From an uncultured Prochlorococcus sp. (GTDB taxonomy: Bacteria; Cyanobacteriota; Cyanobacteriia; PCC-6307; Cyanobiaceae): a DNA stretch of 40,700 nt. Position numbers and translations under genes: made by a program. Below, piece after piece: positions 7,318 to 40,700 of this stretch. The notes below the pieces were generated by a model. That model saw only the letters and a list, made by a program, of their open reading frames with translations, made no database searches and was not told the DNA's origin. Numbering within the stretch: position 1 is the stretch's first letter; each line of letters begins with the position of its first letter. The stretch lies in contig CACOFO010000006.1 of NCBI GenBank assembly GCA_902626435.1, forward strand, positions 1 through 40,700, written 5' to 3'.

Positions 7318-8297
7318 GAAATAAAATTCGATTGTTTTTTTATATTTCTAAAAATACTTATAAAACCCCATAGAATACCTAATATCCATAAAAATTGACA
7401 CAAAGTTGCATAAAAAGGTAAGACAAATTTAGCCTTTCGCCCATATGATATTATCTCGCCTAAAAAATTTATTCCTAAAAGTATTAGGGGTAAGAGCAAT
7501 ACTAAAACTAAAGAAAATTTAAAACTTAAAATTAAAAATAAAATAAAGCATATAAATATAAAAAAATGTCTTGCAGAAATAAATATTTTTCTTGAAACTA
7601 TTATTGTATTAGCTCGACAAAAACCATAAGTGTTAAATAATTTAAGAATATTTTTAAATGATGATCTACTTACATAAGAAAGTTTAATCGAGGATGATAA
7701 ATAAGCCTTGTATCCTTTCTCAAGAAAATCATGAATTATTAATGAGTCTTCTGATATAAGAGCCTCTTTCTCATTAAATCTAATTTCCCTTAAAGTTTTT
7801 GTTCTAAAACAACCTAAATATATTGATGAAGCATATCCAGAATAATTTATATTTTTATGCTTGGGATAAAAATATATATAAGGTCTTTTCAATATTTGAG
7901 AACATATAGTTGCTTCAAAGTTATTTGTTTCTGGAATCACATTTGGAACTCCACCAACTACTTCAACAATAGAGGATTTATCATTAAAGATTTTTAAAGC
8001 ATTTTCTGCATAATTTTTTGAAAATCTTGATCTTGTGTCATATCTAAAAGAATATTCAGAGCTTGAACAATCAATTGCAATATTTAATGATTTTACTCTA
8101 TTTAATTTTTTCATAATATAAACCAACTCAATATTACTATTAATTAATTTATTTAAAATTTTTTTCTCTATATCTTTTCTCCCTGAGTTTACTAAAATAA
8201 GCTGTTTTGGTTTTTTTGTCTGTTCTAAAATTGTTTGTAAACATTCAAATAATTGTTCATAATCATTCGAACATGTTCCAAAAAATGAATATTTCAT
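7314..8297 (-). CDS. Membrane-anchored glycosyltransferase family 2 (ExoA-like)
   Basis: A 327-aa GT2 enzyme. The catalytic domain covers about 1-220: first strand YSFFGTCSNDYEQL, QLILVNSGRKD near 32-42, and RYDTRSRF near 79-86, which takes the place of the usual DxD as in ExoA-type enzymes. GGVPNVIPE follows near 114-122. From about 240 the protein is strongly hydrophobic, with two or three predicted membrane helices between 243 and 315, so the catalytic domain should sit on the inner face of the membrane. It overlaps its neighbours by 4 nt on both sides within the heptose unit, which makes it the best candidate heptosyltransferase of the island. GT2 membership is clear; the heptose donor is inferred from context only. 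Confidence 0.8.
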   Translation of the reverse strand: MKYSFFGTCSNDYEQLFECLQTILEQTKKPKQLILVNSGRKDIEKKILNKLINSNIELVYIMKKLNRVKSLNIAIDCSSSEYSFRYDTRSRFSKNYAENALKIFNDKSSIVEVVGGVPNVIPETNNFEATICSQILKRPYIYFYPKHKNINYSGYASSIYLGCFRTKTLREIRFNEKEALISEDSLIIHDFLEKGYKAYLSSSIKLSYVSRSSFKNILKLFNTYGFCRANTIIVSRKIFISARHFFIFICFILFLILSFKFSLVLVLLLPLILLGINFLGEIISYGRKAKFVLPFYATLCQFLWILGILWGFISIFRNIKKQSNFIS

Positions 8298-9538
8298 AAA
8301 TTCTTTACATTAATAAATTTGCAACCTGAATTTTCTGCCGCCTTTAAATCAACTTCCGAATCACCTATCATTAATGAATTTCCAAGATCTATATTTCTTA
8401 AAAAAGCTTGTTCTAAAATCATTCCTGGATTTGGTTTTCTACAAAAACAATCCTTTTTCAAAATTGAAATCTCATTTTCAAATCCTTTATGAGGATGATG
8501 AGGGCAAAATGTAACTACATCAATTTTCAAACCTTTTGAAAGACAATGCTTTATTACAGTACTATTAATGCTATCTAATCTTTCCATAGATAATTTACCC
8601 ATAGAGATACTAGGCTGATTTGTTACTAAACAAACAAAATCATATTTTTTAGCAATATTACTAATTCGAATTATATTCTCTTCCATAAATTTAATATCAT
8701 TTTCTCGTAAAATGTATTCTCCCACTTGGCATTCAATAATTGTATTATCTCTATCTAAAAACAAAGCACTTTGTTGATTTAAATAATTCTTTAATTTGAC
8801 TTTGCCTAATTCTAAATCTTCTTTTACTTTTCTCAATCTTTTAGGAGTTCCCATATCTTTTATGTATTCAGTTGTGTTATAGGAATATATATCAATGTCC
8901 ATTTCAAAAGCATTTTTTACGATATGGTGAAAGACTGAACTTAAAATTTTTTCTTTTGGTTCCTTAATTTTATTTAATAAATCTTTCTTAATTACGCAAA
9001 TTCCAGAATTACCTAAATATGCATTTTTTTCTTCAAATTTTTTTGAATTCTTTAAAAAGATCTTTTCTATCAATGAGCCATTAGGTACTGACACCAAATC
9101 AGAATCATCAGGATGATCACTTGTATGTGTTACCAAAGTAAGATTTGAAGATAATCTTTGATGAAAATAAATTAATCTATCAAAATCCAAAGAATATATT
9201 AGATCTCCATTTATAAAAAAGAATTCTTCAGATAAATTATCCTTTATTTTCCATAAAACACCGCATTCACCAAGAGGCTTTTCTTCTATAAATGTATCTA
9301 TATTAATACTATATTTTCCCTCTAGTTTATTTATAAAATCTATGAAATAATCATTTTTGTATCCTAAGGAAATAAGAATATTATTAATAGAGTGATTATT
9401 TAATTCAGATATACATCTTTCAAGGGTCGATTTCCCATTAATAGGATACAAAGCTTTAGGGATATCTTTTGTGATTTTTTTTAGTCTTGTTCCTAGACCT
9501 CCACAACTTACAACAGCACTATATTTTTTTTGTATCAT
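8294..9538 (-). CDS. Fused heptose-1-phosphate guanylyltransferase and heptose-1,7-bisphosphate phosphatase
   Basis: Two-domain enzyme of 414 aa. Residues 1-250 are a nucleotidyltransferase of the HddC type: GGLGTRL at 13-19 with the lysine of DIPKALYPING (25-35), EKPLGECG at 86-93, and metal-binding NGD at 110-112. Residues 257-414 are a GmhB-type HAD phosphatase: catalytic DRD at 262-264, TNQPS at 306-310, zinc ligands in CPHH at 345-348 and CFC at 364-366, K368, and GDSEVD at 392-397. It should remove the C7 phosphate of D-glycero-D-manno-heptose-1,7-bisphosphate and then make GDP-heptose from the resulting 1-phosphate. The zinc motif separates it from generic HAD proteins. It sits directly after the kinase gene with an ATGA overlap. 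That the nucleotide is GTP rather than another is inferred from HddC resemblance. Confidence 0.88.
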   Translation of the reverse strand: MIQKKYSAVVSCGGLGTRLKKITKDIPKALYPINGKSTLERCISELNNHSINNILISLGYKNDYFIDFINKLEGKYSINIDTFIEEKPLGECGVLWKIKDNLSEEFFFINGDLIYSLDFDRLIYFHQRLSSNLTLVTHTSDHPDDSDLVSVPNGSLIEKIFLKNSKKFEEKNAYLGNSGICVIKKDLLNKIKEPKEKILSSVFHHIVKNAFEMDIDIYSYNTTEYIKDMGTPKRLRKVKEDLELGKVKLKNYLNQQSALFLDRDNTIIECQVGEYILRENDIKFMEENIIRISNIAKKYDFVCLVTNQPSISMGKLSMERLDSINSTVIKHCLSKGLKIDVVTFCPHHPHKGFENEISILKKDCFCRKPNPGMILEQAFLRNIDLGNSLMIGDSEVDLKAAENSGCKFINVKNL

Positions 9539-15839: not shown

Positions 15840-17741
15840 ATGTGTGGAATTGCTGGGTTAATAGGTAGAAAATCGGCTAAATTTGCAGATAAAGTTTTAG
15901 AGAAACTTAGCCATAGAGGACCTGATGCATTTGGGCAATGGATTTCAAGCGAAAATAATTATCCAGTTAATTTATGCCATACAAGATTAAATATTATTGA
16001 CAAGACAAATAAAGGTAATCAACCATTTATCTCAAAAGATAATAGATATATTTTCATATTTAATGGCGAAATATATAATTTCCTAGAGTTAAAGAAAGAT
16101 TTAGAAAATAAAGGAAGTTTTTTTATATCAAGAACAGATACAGAAGTATTTATGGAGGGTCTAATAAAAGAAGGACCTAGCTTCCAGTTTAAGTGTAATG
16201 GTATGTGGGCTTTTTGTCTTTGGGATAAAAAACTAAATAAAGCAATACTTGGAAGAGATAGATTCGGGGTGAAGCCACTTTATTACTCTACTTTAAATGA
16301 TCATAGTCTAATATTTGCATCTGAAATGAAAGCAATTACTCCATTCCTAGATGAAATCACACCTTCAGAAAACATAGAAAAACATTTGAATAATGTATTT
16401 GATTATGAATATACAAGTTCTTGTGTAATAAAAGGAATTAAGAGAATACTACCAGGACATTATGTAATTTACCAAGATCAAGTTTTAAAAGAATATCAAT
16501 ATTGGAATACATTGGATAATATAAATTTCAATAAAAATTCATACGAGAATCAAGTAGATGAATGGAGAGAATTATTTTTAGACTCTGTAAAAATAAGGAT
16601 GCGTTCTGACGTGAAAATAAGTTCTACACTAAGTGGAGGTTTAGATTCCAGTTCAGTTGTTGCAGCGATGAAATATATAGGAAAGGAGACTAATCCAATT
16701 CAAAAAAATTGTAATGAGACTTTTTGTAGTTCTTACGGGAAAAGTGATTTAGATGAGACTAATTGGGCAAGAGAACTATCTAATAATTTATCAATAAACT
16801 TCAATGAGGTGAAAATAAATCCCAATTCTTCTCAATTAAATCTAATTGATAGCATTGCGATGGTTGAAGATCCATACATATCACTACCTCATCCAATGCT
16901 TCAAACGTATGCAGCAATAAATCGTAAATCAATAAAAGTTTCTATTGATGGGCATGGATCAGATGAATTATTTATTGGATACGGTCATATAAAAAAATTA
17001 ATGATTAAATCTAAAAACCTTTCGGAATTTAGAGAATTAATCTCAATAAATGAATCTACAAAAAGTGGGATATATTCAACAAATGAGAAAAAAATAAAAA
17101 GGAAATGGGTAAAATATAAATTTATCGAATACTTCAAATCATCAATAAATAATTTATTAATAAGTTCAAATAACCTTGGATTTAATGATGACTTCGAAAA
17201 TACAAAAAATGAAATTTTAAAAAAAGTAAGAACTCATAATTGCTTTGAAGAGATGGATGGGTTAACTCAAGCATTATATGAAATATTTCATTTCACAACC
17301 TTACCAACCTTACTTAGAAATTATGATAAGTATTCTATGGCAAATAGCGTAGAGGTAAGGATGCCTTTTATGGATTGGAGATTAGTATGTTATGTTTTTT
17401 CACTCCCATTAAAAAGCAAATTAGGAAACGGTTTTACGAAGAGAATCCAAAGAGATGCTCTAAAAGGAATTTTAAAAGATAACATAAGGCTTAGACGAGA
17501 CAAAATTGGTTGGAATTCCCCAAGCCACGAGTGGTTTAAAAACACAATGAAAGATGAATTATTAATATTACTGAAAGATGAAAAATCTAGAGGCTTAAAT
17601 ATTTATCGAAATAAGGCAAAAGATTCTTTTAACAAATTTCTTAATTTAAAAAATCCAAACTTCTCAGATGGTTATAGAGTTTGGTTAAAAATACAACCTT
17701 ATTTATGGAGAAGAAGTTTGACATCCAAATTATGGAAATAA
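15840..17741 (+). CDS. Glutamine-dependent asparagine synthase-like amidotransferase (copy 1)
   Basis: A 633-aa class II amidotransferase of the AsnB family. The N-terminal nucleophile is intact (MCGIAG, Cys2 after Met removal), with HRGPD near 28-32 and FNGEIYN near 72-78 in the glutaminase domain. The synthase domain starts near 250 and has the ATP-binding PP-loop LSGGLDSSS near 263-271 and DGHGSDELFIGYG near 371-383. Housekeeping asparagine synthase is possible. Inside polysaccharide loci, however, relatives such as WbpS of Pseudomonas aeruginosa O6 are linked to amidation of uronic acids, and genes for uronic acid synthesis lie at 30052-32464. I favour sugar amidation, as inference. It closes the plus-strand run; its stop is 3 nt from the convergent GT4 gene stop. 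Confidence 0.85.
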   Translation: MCGIAGLIGRKSAKFADKVLEKLSHRGPDAFGQWISSENNYPVNLCHTRLNIIDKTNKGNQPFISKDNRYIFIFNGEIYNFLELKKDLENKGSFFISRTDTEVFMEGLIKEGPSFQFKCNGMWAFCLWDKKLNKAILGRDRFGVKPLYYSTLNDHSLIFASEMKAITPFLDEITPSENIEKHLNNVFDYEYTSSCVIKGIKRILPGHYVIYQDQVLKEYQYWNTLDNINFNKNSYENQVDEWRELFLDSVKIRMRSDVKISSTLSGGLDSSSVVAAMKYIGKETNPIQKNCNETFCSSYGKSDLDETNWARELSNNLSINFNEVKINPNSSQLNLIDSIAMVEDPYISLPHPMLQTYAAINRKSIKVSIDGHGSDELFIGYGHIKKLMIKSKNLSEFRELISINESTKSGIYSTNEKKIKRKWVKYKFIEYFKSSINNLLISSNNLGFNDDFENTKNEILKKVRTHNCFEEMDGLTQALYEIFHFTTLPTLLRNYDKYSMANSVEVRMPFMDWRLVCYVFSLPLKSKLGNGFTKRIQRDALKGILKDNIRLRRDKIGWNSPSHEWFKNTMKDELLILLKDEKSRGLNIYRNKAKDSFNKFLNLKNPNFSDGYRVWLKIQPYLWRRSLTSKLWK

Positions 17742-23657: not shown

Positions 23658-25628
23658 CTATTTTTTTAATAGTTCCATATCAGCAAGCCAAGATTGCCAC
23701 ATCAATAGTGTCCATAATCTTGAGGAATTATCTTTTTTACAACTCAAGTGAGTTGTCAAATAATTAGATACGATTTCTGAATTCAAATAACCTTGTCTTT
23801 TAATAGTTGATTCTGCAAGCAGATCACAAGCCCAATCTTTCAAAGGTCCTCTCAACCAATTATTAATGGGTATTGCAAAACCTTTTTTATCATTTTTAAT
23901 TAAAGAATTAGGTAAATAATTACTTAAAATCTTCTTAAGTATCCATTTTGTTTTTCGATTTCTTATTTTCATAGAAAGTGGCAATTTCCAAGCCAACTCA
24001 GCGACTCTATGATCTAAGAAAGGAGCTCTTACTTCTAAACCAGTTGCCATTGAGGCTCTATCAGTTTTTACAAGAATATCCGAGTGAAGATAATTTTGAA
24101 CATCAGCAAGCATTATTCTTTCAGCAATTGAGGTTGCAGATGGTAAAGTTTCTTTCTTCTCTTGACTAGGGTTAAGAAATTCTTCTTTGATTAAATATGG
24201 TTTATCACTCGATTCACAAGTTAAAGAATTATAAATAGACTCTAAGTTTTCGGCATGTAAAATAGATTTTGATAACTTTTGCATTTTTTGTTGAGATAGA
24301 CCTATATTCTTATTTGGTAAATTTATTAATAAGCTACTAATTAAAGATCTAACTGGATAGGGAAAGTCTTTGAAAATTTTATGTATTTTTGGTATTAAAT
24401 AATGACGATTGTATCCGCCAAATAGTTCATCAGCTCCATCCCCAGATAAAACGACTTTTAGACCATTTTTAAAAGCTTCTCTACAAATTAAATATGTAGG
24501 GATTTGAGATGAATCCGCAAATGGTTCTGTATAAATACTTGATAAAGAGGGAATTAATTTGATCAGATCCGAGGATGAAAGAGACACTTCATTATGATTT
24601 GTCCCTAAATAAGAGGCTATCAATTTTGCAGCGGGACCCTCGTCAAAACCCAATTCCCCCTGATTATTATCCGGGAAAGAGATAGTAAAGCTATTTATAG
24701 GTTCTTTAGAGGAGTGCATTAATAAAGAACAAATCAGGGAGGAATCAATCCCGCTAGATAGAAAAACACCGATCGGTACATCAGAAATTTTCTTTTCCTC
24801 TACAGATCTTAATAGTGAATTATTGACTTCACTAATAACAATATCATCATCACTAGGATTCAATTTAGAACTATTCTGAGAAATTTTTAGAGGATCCCAC
24901 CACATTATAGGATTTATACTTTTAAGCTCTAATCTTTCAATATTTTCATAGTTAATTTCCAAATAGTGGCCTGGCCTCAGTTGATTAATATCATCTTCAA
25001 TCGACAAAGGTGCAGAAATAAAACCTTGATTCATAAAAGATTCAAATGCAGATGGATTTATTTTTATTTGATAGCCTTTTAGCGCCCTAAAAGCGCTTAA
25101 ATCTGAAGCAAATAAAAAACTTTTTTTGCTTCTATTATTAAATTTCTTAAAACCATAGTATAGAGGTTTTTCTCCAAATCTATCTCTTACCAAATAAATA
25201 GATCGTTTTTTTCGATCCCATAATGCAAAAGAAAACATTCCTGCAAATTTGTCTAATGCAGAATTCAATCCCCAAGTTTCAATACAGGCAAGAAGTGTTT
25301 CTGTATCAGAATTTCCTCTCCAAAAAAGATTTCCTGTGCTGGATTTAGAAAGATCTTTTCTCAATAATCTATGGTTATAAATTTCCCCATTAAAAACAAT
25401 TACATATCTACCTGATTGACTTAAGAAAGGTTGGTGTCCATTTTTACTTAAATCTTGAATTGCCAATCTTCTATGAGATAATGCAATGCCAACTTTTTCA
25501 TCAATCCAACATCCAGAACTATCAGGACCTCTTGCCTTAATATTTTTAGCCATATCATTGACTTCTTTAGCCAAAAGATCTCCAGAAGTACCATTATTAA
25601 AATCCCATATACCAGCTATTCCGCACAT
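23658..25628 (-). CDS. Glutamine-dependent asparagine synthase-like amidotransferase (copy 2)
   Basis: A 656-aa AsnB-family enzyme. Nucleophile Cys2 (MCGIAGIWDF), RGPDSSGCW near 34-42 and FNGEIYNHRLL near 78-88 mark the glutaminase domain. FLSSGIDSSLICSLL near 288-302 is the PP-loop, and LSGDGADELFGGYNRHY near 395-411 is the second ATP-binding region. DRASMATGLEVRAPFLDHR near 522-540 matches the active-site region of canonical asparagine synthases better than copy 1, so this one could be the real asnB. It is last in the minus-strand run that starts with the uronic-acid genes, which also fits sugar amidation. The ATG is fixed by the need for Cys2. Confidence 0.87.
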   Translation of the reverse strand: MCGIAGIWDFNNGTSGDLLAKEVNDMAKNIKARGPDSSGCWIDEKVGIALSHRRLAIQDLSKNGHQPFLSQSGRYVIVFNGEIYNHRLLRKDLSKSSTGNLFWRGNSDTETLLACIETWGLNSALDKFAGMFSFALWDRKKRSIYLVRDRFGEKPLYYGFKKFNNRSKKSFLFASDLSAFRALKGYQIKINPSAFESFMNQGFISAPLSIEDDINQLRPGHYLEINYENIERLELKSINPIMWWDPLKISQNSSKLNPSDDDIVISEVNNSLLRSVEEKKISDVPIGVFLSSGIDSSLICSLLMHSSKEPINSFTISFPDNNQGELGFDEGPAAKLIASYLGTNHNEVSLSSSDLIKLIPSLSSIYTEPFADSSQIPTYLICREAFKNGLKVVLSGDGADELFGGYNRHYLIPKIHKIFKDFPYPVRSLISSLLINLPNKNIGLSQQKMQKLSKSILHAENLESIYNSLTCESSDKPYLIKEEFLNPSQEKKETLPSATSIAERIMLADVQNYLHSDILVKTDRASMATGLEVRAPFLDHRVAELAWKLPLSMKIRNRKTKWILKKILSNYLPNSLIKNDKKGFAIPINNWLRGPLKDWACDLLAESTIKRQGYLNSEIVSNYLTTHLSCKKDNSSRLWTLLMWQSWLADMELLKK

Positions 25629-28097: not shown

Positions 28098-29840
28098 TTA
28101 AATCTTAATTTTCTTTAATATAAAACTTTCTATAACCAAATAGTTTAGACCGCTATTCTTAAAAACGGAAATCGCATCTTCAAAAGAATAAACCAATGGA
28201 AAACCATGCAAATTGAATGAAGTATTTAATATACAAGGGGTACCTGACATTTTATAAAAATCATGAATTAATTCCCAATATTCTGGATTCATTAATTTAT
28301 CCACTATCTGAACTCTTGCTGTTTTATCCCTTGGGTGGATAGCTGCACATATTTCACTCTGAGCTAATTCTGTAGTATCAAATGCCAACATCATGTAGGG
28401 AGAAAACAAATTTTTAGGATTAACAATATATTTAGAAGCTTTTTCTTTTAATAATGATGGAGCAAATGGCATCCAAAAATCTCTTTTTTTTATTTTGGAA
28501 TTTATTTTTTCAACGTTTGACCAGTCTTTAGGATTTGCTAAAATTGATCTATTACCTAATGCTCTTGCACCCCATTCCATTTTTCCGCTACATCTTGCAA
28601 TAATATGATTGTTCATAATAATTTCTGCAGTGTCTCGAGAAATATTCTCAGATTTATTTATAGATATGTCATCTTCTTCATTTATGTGTTTAGATATAAT
28701 TTTTTCAATATTACCTTCGTAACAAAGACCGCCTAAATATAAATTCTTGAGAGAATCTATAGGTTTTAATTGTTCTTTTTGTTTTAATTCTTCTTTTTGT
28801 TTCAATAATTCTGAATATTCAATCCAAGATGCCCCAAGAGACAAAGATTCATCTCCACAACTGGGGAAAATAAATAATTCTTCCAGTCCATCTATCTCAG
28901 AAATTATTTTATTAGCTTTTACATTCATAAAAACTCCTCCTCCACAAACTACTCTTTTTATTCCAGTTTTTTTTATAATTCCACCGACCCAAGTTCTTAG
29001 TATTTCCTCAGTAAACGTCTGCACTCCCCCTGCAATAGCATCAAATCTCTTACATTCAAATTTTTCTCTCAAAAATTCATATATGTAACTACATTCATGT
29101 TCGCTGCCTAATTCAAAATTAAAACCATCTTTAGATACTTTTAGGAGTTCATCCAAAATTTTTTTTATCTCCAAAGCAAATTTATTTTCAGAGTAAGGGG
29201 CTAATCCCATAACTTTATATTCATGCTCCCAAGGTTTTAAACCAAGCATATAAGTAACTCTTGAATAAATTTTACCAACAGATGCTTTTCTATTAGTCGA
29301 TGAAATCCTTTTAATTTCTAGTCCATTACCTATTGAGACTGTTGCAGATAAACCATCTCCAGCACCATCACAAGTCAAAATTAAAGTCTCCTCATTTAAA
29401 TCAAAAGGAGAGCCAAAATAAGCTGCAGATGCATGAGATAAATGATGATCTTGAAATCTTATATTATTTTTATTTATATTTATATGTTTACAAAGTTGAT
29501 CTATTCTTTCTTTTCTTCTCTGATCAAAAACAGCTTTTAAATATGACGGTTCCCTTTTTGAATCTTTTATAAAATCAGCTTTGCCAGCTTTATACCATTC
29601 TGATGCATTCTCCAAATAGGATGCAGAATGCATAAATTTACTTGCATAAACTGCTATGTCAATATCATGGGTATCAATATTTGCTAGTTTTAAAACCTCT
29701 TCAATTGAAAGCTTAGGATAACCAATTTCATTTTTTTTTCTTGTTAACCTTTCTTCACTTATAGAATATTTTATCTGTCCATCTTGAAGAATTGTAGCTC
29801 CACTATTATGACCATCATGAATACCTAAAATTGTTATCAA
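28098..29840 (-). CDS. NodU/CmcH-family sugar O-carbamoyltransferase
   Basis: Transfers a carbamoyl group from carbamoyl phosphate, through a carbamoyl-adenylate, to a hydroxyl, here presumably of a polysaccharide sugar. The N-terminal TsaD/Kae1-like domain has GIHDGHNSGA, EERLTRKKNEIGYP near 29-42, the metal-binding HHLSHASAAYFG near 131-142, GDGLSA, and CGGGVFMNVKANK near 298-310. The C-terminal domain has KMEWGARALGNRSILANP and NTSFNLHGFPL. Length is about 580 aa. I chose the TTG at 29840, which starts MITILGIHDGHN as in relatives and follows GGGA by 7 nt; a TTG five codons upstream (29855) is the alternative. No in-frame ATG is available. A fragment of an ABC transporter lies just upstream. 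Confidence 0.9.
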   Translation of the reverse strand: MITILGIHDGHNSGATILQDGQIKYSISEERLTRKKNEIGYPKLSIEEVLKLANIDTHDIDIAVYASKFMHSASYLENASEWYKAGKADFIKDSKREPSYLKAVFDQRRKERIDQLCKHININKNNIRFQDHHLSHASAAYFGSPFDLNEETLILTCDGAGDGLSATVSIGNGLEIKRISSTNRKASVGKIYSRVTYMLGLKPWEHEYKVMGLAPYSENKFALEIKKILDELLKVSKDGFNFELGSEHECSYIYEFLREKFECKRFDAIAGGVQTFTEEILRTWVGGIIKKTGIKRVVCGGGVFMNVKANKIISEIDGLEELFIFPSCGDESLSLGASWIEYSELLKQKEELKQKEQLKPIDSLKNLYLGGLCYEGNIEKIISKHINEEDDISINKSENISRDTAEIIMNNHIIARCSGKMEWGARALGNRSILANPKDWSNVEKINSKIKKRDFWMPFAPSLLKEKASKYIVNPKNLFSPYMMLAFDTTELAQSEICAAIHPRDKTARVQIVDKLMNPEYWELIHDFYKMSGTPCILNTSFNLHGFPLVYSFEDAISVFKNSGLNYLVIESFILKKIKI

Positions 29841-29896
29841 GATTTTTTCCCACAATATATAACCATAATAATATATTGCCCTTTATTTTTTAATTA

Positions 29897-38119: not shown

Positions 38120-38569
38120 ATGAGCTTGAGTAAATTTAAAATCAATTGGGTTCTTAATGAAGAACTTGCTGTGGGAACAGCTCCTCAAAAGCAAAAACAC
38201 TTAAAAAAATTAGCCGATGAAGGTATTAAGTCAATATTTAGTCTTTGCGGCGAAAATGAATTAAAAAATGATCTTAATTTGGATGAACTTTTTGATCATA
38301 AAAGATATGTATTACCAGATCACAAGACAGGGAAGATTCTTACTTGTATTGAATTAAATGAATCATTAGAAATTTTAAGAAATTTACTTAAGTCTGGCCC
38401 TGTTTTTGTTCATTGTTATGCTGCAGTCGAAAGATCTCCTTTAGTTTGCATGGCATGGTTAATAAAGGAGCATCAGTTAACCCTTCAGCAATCCCTTGAT
38501 TATTTAATGCAAACAAATCCTGGGACAAATCCCTTACCAGGTCAACTGAGAGTGCTCAAAGAAATATAA
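38120..38569 (+). CDS. CX5R dual-specificity-type protein phosphatase
   Basis: A 149-aa protein of the dual-specificity/tyrosine phosphatase superfamily. HCYAAVERSP at 98-107 is the HCX5R phosphate-binding loop, with nucleophile C99 and R105. D67 in LPDHKTG is a plausible general acid at the usual distance. It starts 8 nt after the BY-kinase gene, whose product has a tyrosine cluster, so it is probably the cognate phosphatase that resets that kinase. In the enteric system that job is done by Wzb, a low-molecular-weight PTP of an unrelated fold, whose CX5R motif sits at the N-terminus; here it is in the middle. Target is inferred from position. Confidence 0.85.
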   Translation: MSLSKFKINWVLNEELAVGTAPQKQKHLKKLADEGIKSIFSLCGENELKNDLNLDELFDHKRYVLPDHKTGKILTCIELNESLEILRNLLKSGPVFVHCYAAVERSPLVCMAWLIKEHQLTLQQSLDYLMQTNPGTNPLPGQLRVLKEI

Positions 38570-38583
38570 AACATACCTGCAAA

Positions 38584-39333
38584 ATGTACTTTATAAGTAA
38601 ATTTGTTCCACTTTTAATTCTTCCCCTAGGCTTAACATTAATATTTTTAATAATCTTTGCAAAAAAAAAATCCTCAATTTTATTAGTTCCAACAATATTT
38701 CTTTCATTTTTTAGTAATGGTATTGTCTCGGAAATGTTATGGAGATATATAGAGTCTCCATGGGAAAGATTGAGTTTAAAAGAAATGCCTAAAGCCGATG
38801 CGATTGTAGTTTTGAGTCAAAAAAGGCATTTACCACCTGGTAAAAGTAAAATAATCGAGTGGTGGCATGATCCTGATAGATTTATGTCTGGATTAATGCT
38901 TTTAAAAGCAAAAAAAGCAGAAAAAATAATTTTTACAGGTGGGTCTAGTCCATATCTTCCTGAATTGCCTCCTGAAGGAAATATTTATAAGCAAGAAGCG
39001 ATATCATTTGGAATCGAACCTAATAAAATTTTAACTACAAGTCCTGTAAGTAATACCATGGAAGAATCCAAAGCGGTTAAATCCATACTTGGTAAGAAAA
39101 AGTCAACAATATTATTAGTAACAAGTGCTTTCCATATGAAAAGAGCAAAAAAATTATTTGAAAAAGAATCAATTGTTGTTATTCCTTACCCTGTAGACTT
39201 CAAATCAAGTAAATACTTTGGGAGGAAAAAATTATTAAATCCATATAATATTTTTCCTAATGCAAGCAGTTTACACTCAAGTTCTAAAGCTATTAGAGAA
39301 ATTATGGGAAGATTAAAATACAACACTTTTTAA
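38584..39333 (+). CDS. DUF218 (YdcF/ElyC-like) envelope protein
   Basis: A 249-aa protein with two N-terminal membrane segments (about 4-27 and 31-54) and a DUF218 domain from about 75. The conserved strands are ADAIVVLSQ near 76-84, IIFTGGSS near 117-124, NTMEESKAVK near 156-165, and ILLVTSAFHMKRAKKLF near 176-192. Relatives such as ElyC and SanA are linked to envelope integrity and lipid carrier metabolism, but the biochemical activity of the family is not settled. It is the third gene of the run beginning with wzc, 14 nt after the phosphatase. A run of ten A at 38661-38670 lies in its coding sequence (residues 26-29). Confidence 0.85.
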   Translation: MYFISKFVPLLILPLGLTLIFLIIFAKKKSSILLVPTIFLSFFSNGIVSEMLWRYIESPWERLSLKEMPKADAIVVLSQKRHLPPGKSKIIEWWHDPDRFMSGLMLLKAKKAEKIIFTGGSSPYLPELPPEGNIYKQEAISFGIEPNKILTTSPVSNTMEESKAVKSILGKKKSTILLVTSAFHMKRAKKLFEKESIVVIPYPVDFKSSKYFGRKKLLNPYNIFPNASSLHSSSKAIREIMGRLKYNTF

Positions 39334-39363
39334 AGAGATAAAATTTCATTTGCTTAATTAAAA

Positions 39364-39981
39364 ATGGAAAATTATTTAAATTTATTAATCATAGATGCAG
39401 AATGGACTGCGTGGGAAGGTTCAATGGAGAGAAATTGGAGCTTAGAAAATGAATATAGAGAAATAGTACAAATATCAGCCATTAAAATTTATGATTTAGA
39501 AACACTCCATAATACAAAATTTTTCTCAATTTATATAAAGCCTAAAATAAATAGTACATTAAGTGATTATTTTATAAATCTAACCGGTATAAAACAAAAA
39601 GATATAGAGACAAATGGTATTGATATAGTATCAGGTTCAAAATTACTTTCTGAATTTATTCAAAATTGTCATTGTCTATCATGGGGAAATGATATAAAAA
39701 GAATAAATGATAATCTAGCTTTGATTTCATCAAAATTTAGAATAGAACCTTCAAAATCTTCAGATATAAGAGAACTATTTAGACTTTATGGAGTTAATAC
39801 TTCAGATTATACTTCTGGATTAATTGACAATTATAGTAATGAAAAAAGCATAATTAAACCAGGAAGTAACCATAACGCATTATCAGATTGTATCTCAATG
39901 GTTTCTGCATTATCAAAATTCGAAAGGTCTCAGGGGAAAGAGGTTTTAAATAATTATTTAAGCAAACTAAAAGAATTATAA
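39364..39981 (+). CDS. DEDDh 3'-5' exonuclease (ERI-1-like)
   Basis: A 205-aa exonuclease-fold protein. Exo I is IIDAEWTAWEG near 9-19 with the D11 and E13 pair. Exo II lies in CHCLSWGNDIKRINDN near 101-116, with D109. Exo III is SNHNALSDCISMVSAL near 173-188, with the family His and Asp. The region LTGIKQKDIE near 73-82 is typical of the ERI-1/KapD subgroup, which trims RNA 3' ends or structured RNA. The gene is on the same strand as the wzc run, 30 nt after the DUF218 gene. It has no obvious link to polysaccharide; it probably marks the edge of the island. It ends 2 nt from the convergent gene's stop. Confidence 0.82.
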   Translation: MENYLNLLIIDAEWTAWEGSMERNWSLENEYREIVQISAIKIYDLETLHNTKFFSIYIKPKINSTLSDYFINLTGIKQKDIETNGIDIVSGSKLLSEFIQNCHCLSWGNDIKRINDNLALISSKFRIEPSKSSDIRELFRLYGVNTSDYTSGLIDNYSNEKSIIKPGSNHNALSDCISMVSALSKFERSQGKEVLNNYLSKLKEL

Positions 39982-39983
39982 AT

Positions 39984-40655
39984 TCATCTTTTAATACAAT
40001 ATCCAATTGCAATATCAATAGAATGTGATATGGATATTTCTAAAAATATTTTTGGATAATTTTTTAAAATTACATAAGGTTTACCATTAGGATAATGTCT
40101 TATTTCAATAAAATTGTATTTGATTTTATTTTTATTATTTAACGCTTTTATGACTGCCTCCTTAGCAGCATATATGCCTAATAAAGTTATTTTAGGATCT
40201 GGACGAGAAAGTGAATAGACCACCTCTAGCTCAGTAAACAACGAAGATCTCAAACTTATATTATCTGATGAAAATATATCATCAGGGAAAGAAGACAAAT
40301 GTTGTATGTCTACTCCAATACCAATTTCATTTGAATTATGATTTTGTCCATTAATATTAGAATCAAAATAAATATTTAAATCTTTTTCTATATAACTTTC
40401 TTTATTATTTTTTGGGAGACCTTGATTTTTTTCAATGTTATAAAGAATCTCTCTTATTGTAGTTTCCGCTGTTATTTCTTCAAATTCAGTTTGGGGGAAT
40501 ACTTCTTCTAATCTAACTTTAACCCTTTCTGCCAATAGGGAACTAAAAAGATTTATTAATTCCCATAATTTTGATTCTTCTGTTATCTTTACATTTTTAT
40601 TTAAAGGAAATTGTTTAATTACTTCAACTAAATTGTTATAAGTATTTTTTTTCAT
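39984..40655 (-). CDS. ACP-like domain fused to a holo-ACP synthase (phosphopantetheinyl transferase)
   Basis: A 223-aa protein with two parts. The C-terminal part (about 110-223) resembles AcpS: IGIGVDIQ near 111-118 with D116, FTELEVVYSL near 140-149, and YAAKEAVIKAL near 162-172 with E166. The N-terminal part (about 1-80) lines up with acyl carrier proteins: a first helix (YNNLVEVIKQF), then SSLLAERVKVRLEEVF near 38-53 in place of the DSLxxxELxxxLEEEF helix, then EITAETTIREILYNIEKN near 60-77 as the ITTVxxxIDYI helix. The phosphopantetheine Ser would be S39, with Ser rather than Asp before it. A linker rich in Asn joins the two parts. I chose the ATG at 40655: a GGGGGGGTGG run is 5 nt upstream, while an ATG at 40676 would translate that run. 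The nearby biosynthetic partner is outside the window. Confidence 0.7.
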   Translation of the reverse strand: MKKNTYNNLVEVIKQFPLNKNVKITEESKLWELINLFSSLLAERVKVRLEEVFPQTEFEEITAETTIREILYNIEKNQGLPKNNKESYIEKDLNIYFDSNINGQNHNSNEIGIGVDIQHLSSFPDDIFSSDNISLRSSLFTELEVVYSLSRPDPKITLLGIYAAKEAVIKALNNKNKIKYNFIEIRHYPNGKPYVILKNYPKIFLEISISHSIDIAIGYCIKR

Positions 40656-40700
40656 TATTACCACCCCCCCAAACATAAGTCACAAATATATCTCGCATTA

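Follow-up and report, generated by a model that had tools for sequence, protein, structure and literature searches.

Our analysis indicated that a 223-residue protein encoded near the end of a contig from an uncultured Prochlorococcus sp. probably arms its own carrier domain and, together with its own ligase, serves glycan acylation. The stretch of DNA analyzed here (the window) is one whole contig of 40,700 bases from a genome that is 65% complete. The initial annotation had placed the protein at 39984-40655 without naming a strand; an intact reading frame was confirmed there and assigned to the minus strand (Table 1), and the plus strand over the same interval contained stops throughout. Numbered from the ATG at 40655, the SSL motif falls at residues 38-40, with VRLEEVF and TTIREIL downstream, exactly where these elements had been placed. 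This ATG is our preferred start, with an in-frame ATG at 40676 as a possible alternative; the closest relative carries TTG at the position equivalent to 40655 and ATG at that equivalent to 40676. An RNase T-like exonuclease gene ends at 39981, tail to tail with the fusion gene. The order of a Wzc-like gene followed by dual-specificity-phosphatase-like, DUF218, and RNase T-like genes (38120-39981, plus strand) was common to the window and to a related genome, G004.

Table 1. Positions in the window of the fusion gene, its parts, and the end of the adjoining ligase gene.
Feature	Coordinates	Strand	Basis or remark
Gene for the carrier-like/AcpS didomain protein, 223 aa	40655..39984	minus	Intact ORF; stop codon 39984-39986
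Carrier-like domain, residues 1-80	40416..40655	minus	Low-confidence helices and carrier profiles; no PF00550 match
S38-S39-L40	40536..40544	minus	S39 (40539-40541), proposed phosphopantetheine site; S38 at the ACP Asp position
Variable linker, residues 81-110	40326..40415	minus	pLDDT <50 over 80-111
AcpS-type phosphopantetheinyl transferase domain, residues 111-223	39987..40325	minus	PF01648, fold, catalytic residues
End of ligase gene, last 13 codons (NARYICDLCLGGW) and stop	40658..40699	minus	Cut by contig end
Run of seven G inside ligase tail	40664..40670	minus	Probable ribosome-binding site of carrier gene

Among 266 genomes of the genus, the fusion was found in three (the window's own, G004, and G086), and in one of the 87 with at least 90% completeness and at most 5% contamination. 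A family search of 400 genomes identified it in the window's own genome and G004 only; a phylum search of 377 genomes matched 87, with full-length sequences free of stops in the same two genomes only. Two narrow peptide patterns searched against genome contigs returned one locus, in G086. A weak match in G133, interrupted by four stops, was set aside as chance. No homologues of the fusion were detected in viral contigs or in phages, plasmids yielded three matches, all confined to the AcpS half, and neither the carrier protein nor its ligase matched the defence-system library.

Profile, fold, and catalytic residues firmly support assigning the C-terminal half to the AcpS-type phosphopantetheinyl transferases. 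The Pfam ACPS family (PF01648) scored 40.8 bits against a cut-off of 25 over residues ~112-210, and 44.2 and 38.1 bits in the two relatives' fusions. The closest PDB sequence was B. subtilis AcpS (E 1.6e-11), followed by fungal fatty acid synthase (FAS) alpha subunits. In the predicted model of the fusion, the C-terminal half matched 1f7l in Foldseek (E 1.3e-6) and aligned to 5xuk with VIA-align (Z 15.3; rmsd 2.1 over 108 residues), and AcpS and fungal-FAS transferase chains topped the fold comparisons. The catalytic Asp8, Lys57-Glu58, Lys62, and Ser-X-Ser-His (AcpS numbering) were retained in all three fusions, corresponding in the window to D116, K165, E166, K170, and S208-I-S-H211; the Asp and Glu metal ligands that the initial annotation had assigned to this half are therefore present as D116 and E166. 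The dN/dS ratio of this half between the window and G004 was 0.10, indicating purifying constraint. The domain shares its fold, length, and catalytic residues with AcpS holo-ACP synthases (PF01648; B. subtilis AcpS, PDB 1f80), but differs from them in sitting behind a carrier-like domain, in lacking Arg14 and Arg53, and in scoring far below the NCBIfam acpS equivalog cut-off (26.5 versus 59.8 bits).

We judge the N-terminal half to be carrier-like and weakly ACP-like rather than a proven ACP. PF00550 gave no match on the fusion protein at E<=10, residues 1-80 included, and a phmmer search of the N-terminus against PDB sequences returned nothing at E<=10. The AlphaFold2 model, built from a three-row alignment (mean pLDDT 64.5), placed N-terminal helices at 2-14, 30-33, 41-52, and 67-77; comparison with PDB structures barely covered residues 1-36. 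In E. coli ACP, the helices lie near 3-15, 36-50, 56-61, and 65-75, and Ser36 opens the second helix. The predicted layout thus fits an ACP at low model confidence. As to the expectation that S39 would stand at the start of a helix, the model places it just ahead of helix 41-52, but residues 37-39 have pLDDT <50, and the ACP fold of residues 1-80 was predicted at low confidence.

Conservation centers on the proposed attachment site. The SSL motif was identical in all three homologues, as anticipated for S39. The N-termini of the window protein and its G086 counterpart are identical at 32 of 80 positions, and LINLFSSL (residues 33-40) is the longest identical run between the two across the whole protein. 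Profile-profile comparison of the three N-termini (three homologues in all, two of them 91% identical) with 36 carrier domains gave a score of 17.92, reached by 2 of 400 column permutations, with an alignment in the expected register (SSL on DSL, LEEVF on LEEAF). With an ACP-only profile of 15 sequences, the score was reached by 9 of 400 permutations and the register differed. Scored singly with the broad profile in a set of 5774 real and shuffled sequences, the window, G004, and G086 N-termini ranked 34th, 4th, and 2036th; for the ACP-only profile, the set numbered 5928 and the ranks were 59th, 45th, and 83rd. The N-terminal dN/dS ratio was 0.42 between the window and G004 (6 synonymous and 11 non-synonymous changes), a weaker constraint than that on the AcpS half. 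The ACP pattern originally proposed for residues 1-80 was borne out only in part: the place of SSL and the broad carrier profile agree with it, whereas PF00550 and the register of the ACP-only profile do not.

Residues through which AcpS recognizes its partners were replaced on both sides of the fusion. According to the accessible part of one study, Arg14 of B. subtilis AcpS contacts Asp35/Asp38 of ACP and helps to orient Ser36 (PMC3447402). In B. anthracis AcpS, Arg53 contacts the CoA 3'-phosphate. In all three fusions, the Arg14 position is serine (S122 in the window) and the Arg53 position is isoleucine (I161); the ACP Asp35 position is taken by S38, and the Asp38 position by leucine or isoleucine. 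The missing aspartate before the serine, already remarked on in the initial annotation, recurred as SSL instead of DSL in every fusion. As judged from these alignments, the aspartate missing from the putative carrier is matched by the Arg14 missing from the transferase, and isoleucine at the Arg53 position could mean weaker CoA use by the fusions.

As a control, 35 free AcpS-like proteins were examined out of the 85 non-fusion genomes matched in the phylum search: the first 18 all came from one family (18/18 with Arg14), and the addition of 17 from 13 families brought the count to 31/35. Arg53 was present in 32 of the 35, and B. subtilis and E. coli AcpS also carry Arg14. The exceptions at Arg14 had Glu (L089, L094), His (L100), or Gln (L091), the last also lacking the catalytic Asp and Glu. 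Since Arg14 is absent from 4 of 35 free proteins, its loss is not special to the fusions. Both printed alignments of fungal FAS transferases show Ala at the Arg14 position and Thr at the Arg53 position, so loss of both arginines is compatible with an integrated transferase. On the carrier side, the ACP of CalE8 reads HMSSI, in which Ser970 stands in the place of Asp and function depends on Ser971 and not on Ser970, as stated in the available text (PMC3107222). The alternative that the N-terminal half is a degenerate domain was accordingly weakened, since the Asp loss is accompanied by Arg14 loss and CalE8 has the same Asp-to-Ser replacement before its modified serine (PMC3107222, available text).

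Free AcpS-like proteins without Arg14 and Arg53 were also encountered at two loci in other cyanobacterial genomes (L107, 3995-7952, minus strand; L106, 4881-8688, plus strand). These are the two proteins with Glu at position 14 noted above (L089, L094), which have Leu or Thr at position 53. Both loci contain a small protein with the motif NSIDLM, a ferritin/desaturase-like gene, the AcpS, a thioesterase, and an AMP-binding ligase. The small NSIDLM protein topped the weak carrier-profile scores (3.2 and 2.6 bits; E 0.45 and 0.72) and had no Pfam match; reading by eye suggests that it may be a carrier. If so, Arg14 loss would follow dedication to a special carrier, fused or free. A plasmid match in Nostoc sp. 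ATCC 53789, annotated 'holo-ACP synthase | acyl-ACP desaturase', may represent the same kind of locus. We tentatively suggest, with somewhat more doubt than confidence and jointly with the minimal self-arming carrier set out below, that a carrier can do without the aspartate once its transferase is dedicated to it or tethered, as fungal FAS would illustrate on the transferase side, CalE8 on the carrier side, and the cyanobacterial free-AcpS locus possibly on both.

An adenylate-forming partner, which the initial annotation had sought beyond position 40700, lies directly upstream on the same strand in both relatives (811 residues in G004, L007 631-3066, and 786 in G086; 45% identical to each other). 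The last 13 residues of the G004 ligase, NARYICDLCLGGW, are encoded identically by the last bases of the window, so the end of the partner gene was already in the window. From the ligase stop to the carrier start there are 2 bases in G004 (to TTG), 4 in G086, and 2 in the window (to ATG). The ligase comprises PF00501 and AMP-binding_C domains, and its best NCBIfam relative is AcsA (TIGR02188), at 320.9 and 290.9 bits, far below the cut-off of 724.95. It shares with AcsA the catalytic Lys (Lys609 in E. coli Acs), but has Phe for Trp414 of the acyl pocket, FEDLS/FEELS for FGGFS, and an additional domain ending in CxxC...CxxC. The Arg191-Arg194 loop was gapped in both ligases in the alignment with E. 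coli Acs, and another alignment aligned the loop without loss; the ordinary chromosomal Acs of G004 has Val at 584 and Lys at 194. In the accessible part of PMC10455477, Arg191 and Arg584 contact the CoA phosphates and Trp414/416 sets acyl size. The pocket changes hint at a small acid and a non-CoA acceptor, with CoA avoidance a weak indication. A precedent for such a loading step is AasR, described in the available text as acylating only its own ACP (AcpR) and not CoA (PMC9386255).

The C-terminal extension of the ligase, ~250 residues ending in CxxC...CxxC GW (L007, 634-1389, minus strand; L008, 19146-19883, plus strand), matched no Pfam family over cut-off and no plasmid. Among the 266 genomes of the genus, with the window's own contig cut, it was strongly matched in G004 and G086 only; matches in G144 and G080 were set aside as chance. 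The structure model of the ligase (mean pLDDT 33.6) was unusable. A -1 ribosomal frameshift at the run of seven G, which would fuse the ligase with the carrier (whose frame is -1 to that of the ligase), was rejected as a shared feature because G086 has no such run, though G004 keeps G6C. The run is not rarer than chance, being present in 44 of 100 shuffles of the window.

The genomic setting bears on the possible acceptor. As initially annotated, the fusion adjoins a polysaccharide island in the window, and in both relatives NeuB, NeuC, and PseF-like cytidylyltransferase genes, together with a hexapeptide (LbH) acyltransferase gene, are close neighbors of the fusion-ligase pair. The presence of nonulosonate genes and the acyltransferase fits the island setting. 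In G086, a NeuD/PglD-type LbH gene lies directly downstream of the pair; in G004, a WbbJ-like LbH gene lies directly upstream on the other strand, and the two belong to different families. G086 also carries a formyltransferase-domain gene. Elsewhere in the window, a single ORF (8294-9538, minus strand) combines nucleotidyltransferase and HAD-type hydrolase domains and adjoins a GHMP kinase gene and an SIS-domain gene (Pfam); by eye, this set looks like heptose activation with two steps fused. The island of the window also contains two different asparagine-synthase-like genes and a carbamoyltransferase gene (15840-17741, plus; 23658-25628, minus; 28098-29855, minus). A free 88-aa ACP containing LLDSM (L024, 1468-1734, minus strand), seen in the Prochlorococcus genome G041, lies between genes named by eye as asparagine-synthase-like and NeuB-like.

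The host appears to possess a transferase and a carrier of its own. G015 has a 218-residue chromosomal transferase that matches PF01648 and that we call Sfp-like from its length; all eight genomes tested, the window's included, carry a homologue of it. A canonical ACP was found in seven of the eight, and none was seen in the window's own incomplete (65%) genome. G004, which is 99% complete, has one PF00550 match, an 80-aa ACP; a carrier as diverged as that of the fusion would escape this profile.

In the mechanism we propose, the AcpS half would take phosphopantetheine from CoA and attach it to Ser39 in the N-terminal carrier domain of the same protein. The AcpS-Arg14/ACP-Asp35 contact, absent on both sides, may have been dropped because the two partners are tethered to each other or have evolved together as a dedicated pair, and its loss would keep the pair apart from the host fatty-acid ACP and the separate Sfp-like transferase. 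The upstream acetyl-CoA-synthetase-like ligase would adenylate a small carboxylic acid and transfer it to the carrier arm instead of free CoA. Finally, in what is the weakest step, the nearby LbH acyltransferase might pass the acyl group on to a sugar; plausible acceptors in the surface polysaccharide would be a nonulosonic acid or some other amino sugar. The fuller version of this proposal, namely a minimal freestanding self-arming carrier of 223 residues that is orthogonal to the fatty-acid ACP through removal of Asp35-Arg14 on both sides, is loaded by an AcsA-derived ligase switched from CoA, and acylates surface glycans, is plausible but falls a little short of what we would call probable.

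A self-arming carrier could instead work in a lipid or small-molecule pathway and merely lie beside the polysaccharide genes. The AcpR/AasR pair serves sphingolipid synthesis, according to the accessible part of PMC9386255, and the two cyanobacterial loci with Arg14-less free AcpS contain a ligase, a thioesterase, and a ferritin/desaturase-like gene, not glycan genes. We nevertheless consider this rather unlikely, given that the pair occurs among NeuB/NeuC/cytidylyltransferase genes with an LbH acyltransferase in both relatives, and next to the polysaccharide island in the window. A different division of labor, in which the AcpS half is dedicated to a carrier whose gene lies elsewhere and the N-terminus is a docking or regulatory domain with S39 unmodified, would account for the lack of a PF00550 match, the weak and partly inconsistent carrier-profile results, and the lower N-terminal constraint. 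It does not sit well with SSL/LINLFSSL being the most conserved stretch of the domain, with a host that already has its own transferase, or with the 80-aa ACP as the sole PF00550 carrier of G004 (an equally diverged carrier would escape the search), and we regard it as distinctly unlikely.

Decay was also considered, that is, an AcpS without Arg14 and Arg53 and a carrier without its aspartate that no longer form a working system. The loss of both arginines and the rarity of the fusion (3/266 genomes of the genus) could be taken in this sense. Retention of the catalytic residues in every fusion, the dN/dS of 0.10 in the AcpS half, and the persistence of both the open frame and the adjoining ligase gene at 43% identity all argue against it, as do the functional fungal FAS transferases that likewise lack both arginines; decay is thus highly improbable. 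The best reading remains a carrier that arms itself and, with a ligase of its own, serves the acylation of glycans.

Same-chain carrier transferases are already known in large synthases (fungal FAS and enediyne polyketide synthase), and carrier-integrated transferases are a recognized class in fungal FAS, as the available text of PMC5605751 describes. The fungal type I FAS alpha subunit likewise holds transferase and carrier in one chain, with the transferase C-terminal and no arginine at the Arg14 and Arg53 positions, but its synthase chains span 1,700-1,900 residues (PDB) against 223 residues without synthase domains here. CalE8 has serine in place of Asp before the functional serine and its own transferase domain in the chain (accessible part of PMC3107222), but it is a large polyketide synthase, compared here on its carrier side. 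In the AcpR/AasR system, an ACS-like ligase is encoded with a dedicated carrier, comparable to the adjacency observed in both relatives and the ligase tail in the window; in contrast, the available text describes no carrier-transferase fusion there and a different pathway (PMC9386255), and the ligase of the fusion is of AcsA type with a 250-residue extension. A literature search for such fusions at the level of listings, with most subscription papers outside its reach, found no description of a small ACP-AcpS fusion. What would be new is a freestanding carrier-transferase of 223 residues that has a ligase of its own and lies in a glycan island. If the proposal is true, the fusion would be the smallest system for studying how carrier and transferase co-specialize and avoid cross-talk with the essential fatty-acid ACP. 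From the loss of the contact on both sides, the fusion is predicted to leave the host ACP unarmed, and its carrier to be a poor substrate for the host transferase or AcpS. The proposal would also suggest that the surface polysaccharide of Prochlorococcus bears an acyl decoration not described so far.
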